In this document: positions 56,725 to 59,931 of the stretch, one piece after another
How the letters are laid out: every line of letters starts with the position of its first letter
How positions within the stretch are numbered: position 1 is the first letter of the stretch
Assembly: GCF_003670115.1 (NCBI RefSeq)
Contig: NZ_QQTY01000005.1
Location: 248,001-312,000 of the forward strand
Direction: 5' to 3'
Origin: Natronorubrum halophilum
Lineage (GTDB): Archaea; Halobacteriota; Halobacteria; Halobacteriales; Natrialbaceae
DNA length: 64,000 nucleotides
Notes under the pieces: model-generated
The model's input: the letters and a program-made list of their open reading frames with translations, nothing else
What the model was told of the DNA's origin: nothing
Databases searched by the model: none
Position numbers and translations under genes: made by a program

Positions 56725-57462
56725 TCAGGGACGGCGGATCGAGTGGGACAGCGTCCCGACGCCTTCGACCTCGATCTCGACCTCGTCGCCGTCGGAGAGC
56801 GGACCGACGCCTTCGGGGGTACCGGTGGCGATCACGTCGCCCGGCTCGAGGGTCATGTACGTCGTGATCTCGGCGATGAGTTCCGGGATGGGGAAGATGA
56901 GTTGCTCGAGCGAGCCGTCCTGTTTCAGGTTGCCGTTGACTCTCGAGCGGACGAACGCGTCGTCGGGCACCTCGTCGGGCGTCGCGAGCAGCGGACCGAT
57001 CGGCGCGGAGCCGTCGAACGCCTTGCCGCGGATCCAGTTCTGTTCTTCCTGCTGGTCGTCGCGATTCGAGACGTCGTTCACGCAGGTGAACCCTTCGACG
57101 ACGTCCATCGCCTCGGATTCGGGGACGTGGCGGCACTGTTCGCCGATAACGACGCCGAGTTCCGCCTCGTGGTCGATCCGTTCTTTCCCCGCGGGTGCGG
57201 TGACGGTGTCGCCGTGACCGGCGAGCGCGTTCGGCGGCTTCAAGAAGAGCAGCGGCCGGTCCGGCACGTCGTTCCCCATCTCGTCGGCGTGGTCGGCGTA
57301 GTTGCGGCCGATACAGACGATCTTCGAGGGCTCGCAGGGCGGCAAGACGTCGATGTCGTCGTCCTCGAGGCGGTAGCTCTCGTTCGCGAAGTGAACGTGG
57401 CCGCTTTCGAACTCGCCGCGGCGGACGGCACCGGCCGGATCGCGGAATCGAACGTATTTCAT
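56725..57462 (-). CDS. Fumarylacetoacetate hydrolase (FAH) family protein
   Basis: A 245-residue FAH-domain enzyme. Signatures are ICIGRNYADHADEMG (seen as VCIGRNYADHADEMG), the metal ligand region DHEAELGVVIG, CVNDVSNRD, GKAFDGSAPIGP and VIATGTPEGVGP. Related enzymes hydrolyse C-C bonds or decarboxylate/isomerise in catabolism of aromatics, or act as oxaloacetate tautomerase/decarboxylase. A TATA-like CTTTTGATG about 27 bases upstream supports the ATG at 57462 rather than 57489. Confidence 0.93.
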   Translation of the reverse strand: MKYVRFRDPAGAVRRGEFESGHVHFANESYRLEDDDIDVLPPCEPSKIVCIGRNYADHADEMGNDVPDRPLLFLKPPNALAGHGDTVTAPAGKERIDHEAELGVVIGEQCRHVPESEAMDVVEGFTCVNDVSNRDDQQEEQNWIRGKAFDGSAPIGPLLATPDEVPDDAFVRSRVNGNLKQDGSLEQLIFPIPELIAEITTYMTLEPGDVIATGTPEGVGPLSDGDEVEIEVEGVGTLSHSIRRP

Positions 57463-57799
57463 GCGAGATAGCTCGTATCGCGGCATCAAAAGCGTTGAGG
57501 TGACGGTGGTACTTGGAGTTCATCGCGTCGACTATCGGATATCGCGCTGTCCCGAGGCCGTTTCGTAGCCTGCTGACGGACAGATCGAACGAGAAACGGA
57601 GTGGTGGTGACCGACTCGAGCGTCCGAGAACAAATGAAACTGCGATCTGGCGGCGACTTGAGCACGTCAGGGCGTGCCACTACGGGAGCGGAACGGAACG
57701 TTTTTTACTAGCCCCCCGCAATCAGCTAATGCGTTCGACACGCGCTCCGGTGGCGAGATGGGCAGGTCCGTCGAGGCACGGGGTGAGAACGCAGTGAAC
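57463..57799. other. Gap between the FAH gene and tRNA-Glu
   Basis: Neither strand shows a credible gene over these 337 bases. A T-run followed by ACTAG at about 57702-57712 may be a promoter element for tRNA-Glu or a terminator. The first 40 bases contain the FAH promoter. Confidence 0.4.
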
Positions 57800-57874
57800 G
57801 CTCCGTTGGTGTAGCCCGGCCAATCATTTCGGCCTTTCGAGCCGATGACCTGGGTTCAAATCCCAGACGGAGCA
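57800..57874 (+). tRNA. tRNA-Glu (TTC)
   Basis: The 75-base gene folds as a cloverleaf. The acceptor GCTCCGT pairs with ACGGAGC, with discriminator A. The anticodon stem TCGGC/GCCGA closes the loop CTTTCGA, giving anticodon TTC. The T arm is CTGGG-TTCAAAT-CCCAG. A T-run (57875-57879) follows. Its 5' two-thirds are copied at 59025-59075, see findings. Confidence 0.95.
57802..57850 (+). repeat. 49-base direct repeat, copy 1 (within tRNA-Glu)
   Basis: Bases 57802-57850, from the acceptor stem through the anticodon arm, are repeated exactly at 59027-59075. The repeat pair brackets the AT-richer segment with a methyltransferase gene, as expected for integration at a tRNA gene or a recombination product. 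Confidence 0.85.
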
Positions 57875-57958
57875 TTTTTGCGAACGAAGTGAGCAAAAAG
57901 CGGACGCTCTGGAATTTGAATCGGAGAGGTACCGGCCCGCGAGCGAAGCGAGCGGGAT

Positions 57959-57992
57959 CGTCTTCGCGTCGTTCAAATCCCAGATGAAGCAC
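57959..57992 (+). repeat. 3' tRNA-Glu-like relic, copy 1
   Basis: The 34 bases contain a T-loop/acceptor-like end (GTTCAAATCCCAG, then ATGAAGC) and match 59117-59150 with only four substitutions; the first 19 bases are identical. This suggests the island ends were duplicated or that older integration left a scar. Confidence 0.65.
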
Positions 57993-58172
57993 TAAGACGG
58001 CTTCGCCGTCTCGCAGTTTTCACACATAACATAGAATGAACATAAACCCACTTTACGGGTTAAATGAGTGCAAACTTACTGTCGATTGTACAGCTGTAAA
58101 TGATGTTCCGGAGCTATGCTGCACATAAGGTGCGTATCGGTCACAGATGATACTCCTCTCATGAAAAGACTG

Positions 58173-58286
58173 AGATGACATTTGATGACTTGGAACAAGC
58201 AAACGCATGGGAATACACGTGATGACGCCAATTTAGATGCTGAACTTCGCTCTGTAGAAGTTGAAGTTTATTTCGCCTTGGAGTAG
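58173..58286 (+). pseudogene. Frameshifted coding relic
   Basis: The peptide MTFDDLEQANAWEYT is followed by a stop, and a one-base shift continues as DDANLDAELRSVEVEVYFAL and E before TAG. Together they look like the end of a small acidic haloarchaeal protein broken by a frameshift, in DNA that is AT-richer than its surroundings. The family is not recognised. Confidence 0.35.
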
Positions 58287-58329
58287 GTGAACGCGCTGAC
58301 AGACTAAAGTGCATGCCGGTCACCACCGC

Positions 58330-58944
58330 TCAGACTCGCTCGACAATCGCGAGTAAACCTGGAAACGAGGTTTCGCGCGTCTCGAACGTTACTTCCCGCG
58401 TTTCCAGGACGTTCCACTCTATTGCAAAGGCGGTGGATACGTCATCAGGAGTGAGCGGGTTCGGTCCTCCATCCGCTGGAGCACCTGCAGCAAATCCGAC
58501 AAGGAACACACGACCCCCCATCGAGACGATACTGGCGAGTTCGCAAGCGTAGTCCTCGCGCTCTTCACTCTGGAACGCGTGGAACAGACCACTGTCCAGC
58601 ACGGTATCGAACGTTCCGATATCGTTGGGAAAGTCCAGTGCATTTGCGACTCGGAACGTCGCATTGAGGCCCCGTTCTTCGGCGTTCTTCCGTGCTTGCT
58701 CGATTCCTTTTTTGGAGAAATCTATGCCCACGGCTGTGTGTCCCTCGGTTGCTGCCCAGAGTGCATGTGTTCCAGTTCCGCATCCAACATCAAGGACGCG
58801 ACCGGATAATCCGTCACTCCCAACGGCGTTCACGAGAGCTGGCTGTGGCTTGCCAATATCCCAGGGAGGGGCGATTTCGCTTTCGTATACGCCGTTCCAC
58901 CACTCCGCTGGACCACCTGTTTCAGAATCCGATTGGTCCGACAT
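58330..58944 (-). CDS. Class I SAM-dependent methyltransferase in the tRNA-Glu island
   Basis: A 204-residue methyltransferase. It starts SDQSDSETGGPAEWWNGVYE; motif I is RVLDVGCGTGTHALWAATEG, the acidic residue is in VGIDFSKKGIEQARK, and post-motifs are NALDFPNDIGTFDTVLDSGL. Related enzymes methylate small molecules such as thiopurines, tellurite or halides. Codon use is less GC-biased than in neighbours and the promoter is AT-rich (TATA-like TTATTA at 58971-58978, leaderless). Both suggest transfer with the island. Confidence 0.88.
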   Translation of the reverse strand: MSDQSDSETGGPAEWWNGVYESEIAPPWDIGKPQPALVNAVGSDGLSGRVLDVGCGTGTHALWAATEGHTAVGIDFSKKGIEQARKNAEERGLNATFRVANALDFPNDIGTFDTVLDSGLFHAFQSEEREDYACELASIVSMGGRVFLVGFAAGAPADGGPNPLTPDDVSTAFAIEWNVLETREVTFETRETSFPGLLAIVERV

Positions 58945-59024
58945 GGACTGGTACTCAATTCAACCATTGATAATAATTTTGTTGAAATAAAACGGAGGCC
59001 CGATTGAAAGCGCCGAAGGTGCTC

Positions 59025-59149
59025 GTTCCGTTGGTGTAGCCCGGCCAATCATTTCGGCCTTTCGAGCCGATGACCGAGGATTTGAATGAGACCAGTCGCG
59101 CGCAGCGTAGCGAGCACGTCTTCGCGTCGTTCAAACCCCGGACGGAGCA
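59025..59149 (+). pseudogene. Rearranged tRNA-Glu copy with 53-base insertion in the T arm
   Basis: Bases 59025-59075 repeat tRNA-Glu from the acceptor to the start of the T stem, with C-to-T at acceptor position 2. After a 53-base unrelated stretch (59076-59128) the T loop and 3' acceptor return (GTTCAAACCCCGG, then ACGGAGC-A, 59129-59149). The acceptor halves still pair (one T-G wobble), but the 5' T stem is missing. It is either a tRNA pseudogene scar of integration or, less likely, a tRNA with an unusual intervening sequence. Confidence 0.65.
59027..59075 (+). repeat. 49-base direct repeat, copy 2
   Basis: Identical to 57802-57850 in tRNA-Glu. It forms the right boundary of the island. 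Confidence 0.85.
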
Positions 59150-59232
59150 CGACATACGCGACACTTTGTCGGCCTCCATCCTCGAGCAACTCGGTTACTC
59201 GATTCGTCGGCAGAGCCGCGCAAAACGACCGC

Positions 59233-59931
59233 TTAGTCCCGTGAGCCGATCCGAATCGCTCTCGCAGCCGTCGCTTTGAACGATGCGGTGATCGACCGCC
59301 CCGGCTCGAGCGCTAACCGGTCCGAACTGGCGTTCGTGATCAGCGCCTGGATCGTGACGTCCGCCGCGAGCCGGATCGTCACTCTGGTGATCGCGTCGCC
59401 GGGCTCGAGTCGCTCGACGGTCCCGGTGAACTGGTTCCGGAGACTGGTGCCGTCCGCCTGCGGCGTCTCGTCCGGATCCGTCAGGACGACTGCGTCGGAG
59501 CGAACGGTAACCTGGACGTCGCTCGCGCCCTCGGGGACCAGGGCCAAAATCGGTCCGAGACCCGTCTCGACGGTCGCGAGTTCCCCCGTTCGGTCTCGAA
59601 TGGTCCCCGTAAAGACCGACTCCGTGACCCGTGCGACGCCGTCGAGTTCGGCCTCGTGACGATCGAACTGCTGGCGCAATTCCCGTGCCGTCTGCGTGAG
59701 TTCGGTCCCGCCGCCACCGCTTCCGCCTCGCTGTCGCTCCGTGATCGGTCCGACGGCGTCTTCGATTTCGACGACGCGGTTCTGAAGCCGCGCGTACGAT
59801 CGTCCCAGTTCGTCGGCCGCCTTGTGCATCGATCCGTACCGGTCGATCGCGTCGAGCATCTCGATGTCGCGCTGACCGATCGTGACGCCCTCGACCGAGA
59901 GCTTCGTGCTGTATTCCTTTTCTATCGTCAT
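59233..59931 (-). CDS. modE: ModE-type molybdate/tungstate-responsive regulator with TOBE domains
   Basis: A 232-residue regulator. The LysR-like winged helix of ModE is clear (RYGSMHKAADELGRSYARLQ, then ITERQRGGSGGGGTELTQTA). Two TOBE/MOP-like domains follow at about residues 100-165 and 165-232 (VFTGTIRDRTGELATVETGL, FTGTVERLEPGDAITRVTIR), which bind oxyanions. It lies 72 bases downstream of tupC on the same strand, so it likely senses tungstate or molybdate and regulates the tup operon. Confidence 0.92.
   Translation of the reverse strand: MTIEKEYSTKLSVEGVTIGQRDIEMLDAIDRYGSMHKAADELGRSYARLQNRVVEIEDAVGPITERQRGGSGGGGTELTQTARELRQQFDRHEAELDGVARVTESVFTGTIRDRTGELATVETGLGPILALVPEGASDVQVTVRSDAVVLTDPDETPQADGTSLRNQFTGTVERLEPGDAITRVTIRLAADVTIQALITNASSDRLALEPGRSITASFKATAARAIRIGSRD

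Follow-up and report, generated by a model that had tools for sequence, protein, structure and literature searches.

A probable remnant of a Hafunaviridae-type element among tRNA-linked hairpin units at a haloarchaeal tRNA-Glu gene

Introduction

In the window analysed here, a stretch of 64,000 nucleotides from Natronorubrum halophilum, an intact tRNA-Glu(TTC) gene is followed by further pieces of tRNA-Glu sequence on either side of AT-rich DNA with a methyltransferase gene. Is this island an integrated element, where does it begin and end, and are the tRNA pieces the scars of its integration? Haloarchaeal tRNA genes are known targets of such elements. Proviruses of the HF1 group recombine into tRNA-Thr, and tRNA genes are possible at both of their ends (PMC7230728), all Hafunaviridae encode tyrosine recombinases (PMC8651126), and islands with an HF2-like integrase and a truncated tRNA copy have been described at haloarchaeal tRNA-Glu genes (HVO_2815A, Nmag_0465; PMC3119063). 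A first-pass annotation of the locus had proposed a decayed integrative element occupying 57875-59150. Our analysis upholds the element and revises its span to about 57993-59024; the island as such is an ordinary decayed tRNA-targeted element. The short units that flank it are not ordinary, and they are the more interesting object.

Results and discussion

Layout of the locus and the two tRNA-Glu copies

The features of the locus are collected in Table 1. Its ends are linked, as had been noted before, by an exact 49-nt repeat (57802-57850 and 59027-59075) and by a near repeat (57951-57992 and 59109-59150), and the island is AT-richer than its surroundings, with a GC content of 0.49-0.56 against 0.61-0.68 in the flanks. 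Copies of the tRNA 3' end lie at 57971-57991 and 59129-59149, with 90% identity to the tRNA end. In the distal copy, tRNA positions 3-52 are followed by the inverted T-arm and hairpin of a second unit in place of the T-arm. The inner hairpin of unit 2 is of the AGACCAG..CGTCT type, as in the congener G005, and a GACC-TGG microhomology marks the junction of this unit with the tRNA segment. The 3' tRNA relic and the rearranged distal copy of the first-pass annotation are thus real; neither the former nor the insert of the latter is the scar of this integration event, since both belong to a unit found throughout the class. When the covariance models of Rfam 15 were run against 57700-59300, tRNA alone passed its threshold. 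Both tRNA-Glu copies read GTAGCCC (window positions 57818 and 59043), as against GTAGTCC in 16 of 16 relatives examined, and this private C means an undated exchange of sequence between the two copies or a recent shared source.

Table 1. Features of the tRNA-Glu locus, in positions of the window
Feature	Position	Strand	Remarks
Fumarylacetoacetate-hydrolase-family gene	56725-57489	-	Chromosomal flank; upstream of tRNA-Glu in most of 29 relatives
tRNA-Glu(TTC), intact	57800-57874	+	C at position 19 (GTAGCCC)
Unit 1, trailer hairpin (hairpin A)	57875-57899	+	Type shared with congeners G003 and G006
Unit 1, left arm	57907-57920	+	Inverted copy of the tRNA T-arm (CTCTGGAATTTGAA)
Unit 1, inner hairpin	57921-57971	+	Class I; tip GCGAGCGAAGCGAGC
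Unit 1, right arm	57972-57992	+	Copy of the cognate tRNA-Glu 3' end; attL-like left junction of the putative element
Putative left attachment arm	57993-58059	+	Matches HSTV-2 and provirus left arms
AT-rich remnant	58060-58264		No match found
Foreign cargo block	58265-58999	-	DNA 82% identical to a Haladaptatus pallidirubidus locus
Methyltransferase ORF, intact	58330-58944	-	204 aa; class I SAM-dependent; Methyltransf_25 / TPMT-like
Putative right attachment arm	59003-59023	+	ATTGAAAGCGCCGAAGGTGCT; common to the intact G024 element
tRNA-Glu segment on the element side	59027-59075	+	tRNA positions 3-52; putative attR; exact 49-nt repeat of the functional gene
Unit 2, without trailer hairpin	59076-59150	+	Inverted T-arm, inner hairpin, cognate 3' end
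HTH/TOBE-domain gene	59233-59931	-	Chromosomal flank; adjoins tRNA-Glu in G002, G005 and G030

The island as an insertion

Comparison with related genomes reveals the empty site that an insertion predicts. The distance from the end of tRNA-Glu to the stop codon of the downstream TOBE gene is 143 bp in G002, 395 bp in G005 and 1358 bp here, and these congeners keep the flanking genes and have no island. Sharing of the same segment by many genera had been named as the sign of vertical inheritance; the flanking units are indeed shared by many genera, whereas the island they enclose occurs in no other genome compared. The methyltransferase, previously taken for cargo, is an intact ORF for which the nine other genomes of the genus offer no ortholog (34% identity at best). 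It is most closely related to proteins of Haladaptatus pallidirubidus (81% at the amino acid level) and Haloferax profundi (62%), so that acquisition across families appears most likely. The Haladaptatus pallidirubidus counterpart, whose DNA similarity covers 58265-58999, lies beside an nrdR-like gene and away from any tRNA. In that genome (NZ_CP085301.1) the 8.6-kb surroundings of the methyltransferase occur twice, 100% identical and about 550 kb apart (L238, L239), which may reflect the recent duplication of a large segment or be a matter of the assembly.

Both ends of the island resemble the attachment arms of Hafunaviridae-type elements. Positions 57995-58023 are identical at 24 of 29 sites to the attachment arm of the isolated virus HSTV-2, which lies between its tRNA-Leu fragment and its integrase, a score reached in none of 5000 shuffles. 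Among the left arms compared across 30 related integrase loci, that of a provirus in G156 (L288) matches 58006-58059, and that of G024 also matches the interval 57993-58059. At the other end, the right arm of the G024 element, beside its tRNA copy, reads ATCGAGAGCGCCGAAGGCGCT, and it recurs at 59003-59023; a scan of 391 genomes for this pattern hit only these two places, the island and the right end of the intact G024 element. The intact elements at tRNA-Glu, of 15 kb in G024 and 9 kb in G060, have the order tRNA, tyrosine integrase (PF00589), cargo and a tRNA copy that has lost its first 8-10 nt, and their type of integrase shares 55% identity with the integrases of HSTV-2 and other Hafunaviridae. 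Direct repeats derived from the tRNA are present at both ends of the island, as of such elements.

The rest of the expected gene content is gone. In 28 of the 30 loci the related integrase begins some hundreds of nt past a tRNA end; no tyrosine integrase ORF was found beside the left end or elsewhere in 57993-59024, in agreement with the first-pass annotation, and no capsid or other viral gene was found in the island, where the methyltransferase is the sole gene left. The supposed frameshifted gene relic at 57993-58330 calls for a correction: its first 65 nt or so are the attachment arm, and the AT-rich stretch, read through against PHROGs and NCBIfam, gave no family match. Between the island and the elements of G024 and G060, homology is limited to the arms, the tRNA and the units. 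Because both arms match such elements, the comparisons support the island as a remnant of an HF2/HSTV-2-like element that would have lost its integrase and viral genes; as the integrase ORF is absent, we speak of a remnant and not of a member.

tRNA-linked hairpin units

The unit behind tRNA-Glu is about 118 bp long and consists of a trailer hairpin, an inverted copy of the T-arm, an inner hairpin and the 3' end of the cognate tRNA. Units are also found in this genome behind tRNA-Val (three), Gly, Ser, Phe, Arg, Ile, His and others, and each unit bears the 3' end of the tRNA that precedes it. Of the 43 tRNA genes, 19 have a cognate copy matching at 15 or more of 20 positions in the 330 nt downstream, and one, presumably the second gene in the tRNA-Asp tandem, has such a copy upstream; the ends of non-cognate tRNAs reach this score in 4% of comparisons. 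A strict pattern, GGATTTGAA-N30..60-TTCAAATCC, was present in 236 of 292 genomes of Halobacteria, and the reversed pattern, used as a control, in none. Outside Halobacteria the strict pattern occurred in one of 101 genomes of the phylum, where the hairpin was absent. Of the 27 pattern loci sampled, 25 are near a tRNA, and nearly all of these stand directly behind it with the cognate end. At L097 the unit has been cut off from its tRNA by an integrase-bearing element, while L104, with no tRNA nearby, was rejected as a chance match inside a gene. Units occur in zero to four tandem copies, with up to four behind tRNA-Asp within one genus. We found no earlier description of them in Rfam or in the literature searched, which lies mostly outside subscription journals. 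The small-genome Halobacteria of family f12 are among those with the most strict-pattern units (11-14 per genome), and one of their arrays fits five units into 600 bp, the two inner types following each other in turn (G063 C1:705395-705938, G047 C1:1884039-1884207).

The inner part of the unit folds as a hairpin with conserved mismatches. In 18 gap-free units 90% of the cells pair, as against 81% in shuffles, and 16 double changes are seen as against 4.1, a number reached in none of 500 shuffles; this control can be inflated by kinship of the sequences, but sliding the partners abolishes the signal. The outer arms are also complementary within units (3.59 of 5, at most 3.22 in 2000 shuffled pairs), and left arm, tRNA end and tRNA-end copy are mutually complementary. 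The covarying pairs, this threefold complementarity and the class-wide occurrence of units almost always directly behind a tRNA are what would be expected if the units functioned as hairpins of the tRNA transcript, as RNA or as DNA, serving in 3'-end formation or as a switch whose antisense arm takes either the tRNA end or its copy as partner, and if the adjacency of the element were coincidental. We consider this somewhat unlikely, because about half of the tRNA genes do without a unit, the same tRNA-Asp within one genus has zero to four units of differing classes, and in one case, at tRNA-Ser(TGA), the inner hairpin is inverted relative to the tRNA (L006, G000 C2:899953-900021). On the other side of that tRNA-Ser(TGA), about 300 nt away, there is an HF2-type integrase gene (C2:898564-899508, minus strand).

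The composition of the units is suggestive of exchange. By our own sorting the inner hairpins fall into about seven classes, most of them present at several tRNA species, and the spacers vary among species at the same tRNA. At tRNA-Asp of genus g46 the same trailer hairpin and arms enclose differing inner classes, and the converse is also seen. What maintains the units is a matter of inference; the reading we favour is that the T-loop-like cores may be recombination points at which unit spacers are shuffled. We tentatively suggest, at somewhat under even odds, that the units are an undescribed feature of the class Halobacteria: each would hold its cognate tRNA 3' end both directly and inverted, spacers would be exchanged at these cores, and the tRNA-end copies would be surrogate attachment sites, receiving viral integrations in lieu of the tRNA gene.

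Proposed site of integration and history of the island

We propose that a tyrosine integrase of Hafunaviridae (HF2/HSTV-2-like) type integrated the element now at 57993-59024 behind the last 21 nt of unit 1, a copy of the tRNA 3' end, and not behind tRNA-Glu itself. Unit 1 would then have been one of two tandem units behind this tRNA before the insertion. Most of the element, integrase and viral genes included, would later have been lost, leaving both arms and the methyltransferase gene, and a deletion of about 60 nt at the GACC-TGG microhomology may have fused the tRNA segment of the element to unit 2, removing T-arm, 3' end and trailer hairpin. Since GACC(N)TGG is found at both places in relatives, a microhomology deletion is probably the simplest account of this junction. 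We put the probability of the whole account at about 0.72.

The choice of site is suggested by the left arm, which abuts the 3' copy of unit 1, 118 bp past tRNA-Glu, so that this copy is probably the attachment site. The trailer hairpin of unit 1 is of the type found behind the orthologous tRNA in the congeners G003 and G006 and thus appears native; we therefore infer that unit 1 was present first and that its tRNA-end copy was the attB used. A parallel with an intact integrase, imperfect because its contig has single-N joins in the repeated flank, is the element behind a unit at tRNA-Gly(TCC) in G191. It also speaks for the account that the attachment region of HSTV-2 has the tRNA end and no unit. 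Against insertion behind a unit counts the position of the element directly behind the tRNA itself in 27 of 28 tRNA-linked integrase loci, and the account as a whole is weakened by the lack of integrase, capsid and other viral genes in the island, by the unmatched stretch 58060-58264 and by the undated private C of the two tRNA copies.

If instead the element had integrated at the tRNA gene as usual and unit 1 had been inserted between the two later, the units would be mini-elements that repeatedly arrive at a functional tRNA and push older insertions downstream. This would fit the tandem units behind one tRNA, up to four, and the finding that nearly all related elements directly follow a tRNA gene, but it is unlikely given that the trailer hairpin of unit 1 looks native and not newly arrived, that no enzyme or free form is known to move units, and that units are absent from the viral contigs and phage records searched. 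Vertical tandem duplication of tRNA-Glu followed by decay, with no integrated element, is very improbable: tandem tRNA-Asp genes do exist in this genome, but the arms at both junctions already speak against it, and the intervening DNA is AT-rich and its gene foreign to the genus.

Relation to known systems

Like the Hafunaviridae proviruses at haloarchaeal tRNA genes (HF1/HF2, HSTV-2, Hdep-prov1), the island has the attachment arms, the tRNA segment on the element side and the orientation; unlike them it is only about 1 kb long, is without integrase or structural gene, and has its left arm against the copy of a unit and not against the tRNA gene. The HVO_2815A and Nmag_0465 islands share the target tRNA and, at their far end, the truncated tRNA copy, but measure 5-48 kb and retain the integrase.

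The units themselves recall other folded or palindromic repeats. Integron attC sites and CTX-type folded attachment sites are imperfect hairpins with inverted cores and conserved mismatches, arranged as tandem units, and the tRNA-linked units are similar in these respects; a role as folded-strand substrate is putative. They differ from attC in their cores, which derive from the tRNA and match the one next to them: they read GATTTGAA / TTCAAATC, the tRNA T-loop, and do not agree with the RYYYAAC/GTTRRRY core boxes. In a check for IntI no integrase was found in the island, and the genome has 9-11 Phage_integrase genes, a count in which types are not told apart. The small mobile repeats, MITEs and PATEs of Haloquadratum are likewise short non-coding haloarchaeal repeats with palindromes (PMC3119063), but the units are tied to tRNA genes and each bears the 3' end of the matching tRNA.

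Short elements that copy the end of whichever tRNA precedes them, in direct and inverted form, and that are spread over most Halobacteria have a bearing on the survival of tRNA genes, which integrating viruses prefer as targets. Should the copies be surrogate attachment sites, this would be directly testable in Haloferax or Haloarcula. The elements also carry a risk for annotation, in that their tRNA-end copies can be taken for integration scars, as happened here.

Viral and plasmid sequences

Units as attachment sites carried by viruses were considered and rejected, as they are not in IMG/VR, phage records or HSTV-2/HCTV-6; none of the 92 IMG/VR matches inspected had the haloarchaeal hairpin tip. 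Five high-GC viral contigs (L160, L174, L186, L189, L212) have a nearly perfect palindrome, GGATTTGAACCGTGG..CCACGGTTCAAATCC, which resembles a tRNA T-arm inverted repeat without that tip. The plasmid matches examined are mostly ordinary tRNA-Glu genes on large haloarchaeal plasmids, and at L245 a tRNA-Glu 3' end is followed by a unit. Large plasmids of Haloarcula, Salinigranum and Halobaculum (L242, L243, L246) share a conserved tRNA-Glu(CTC) gene close to a P-type ATPase region, a gene that the plasmid gene table does not list.
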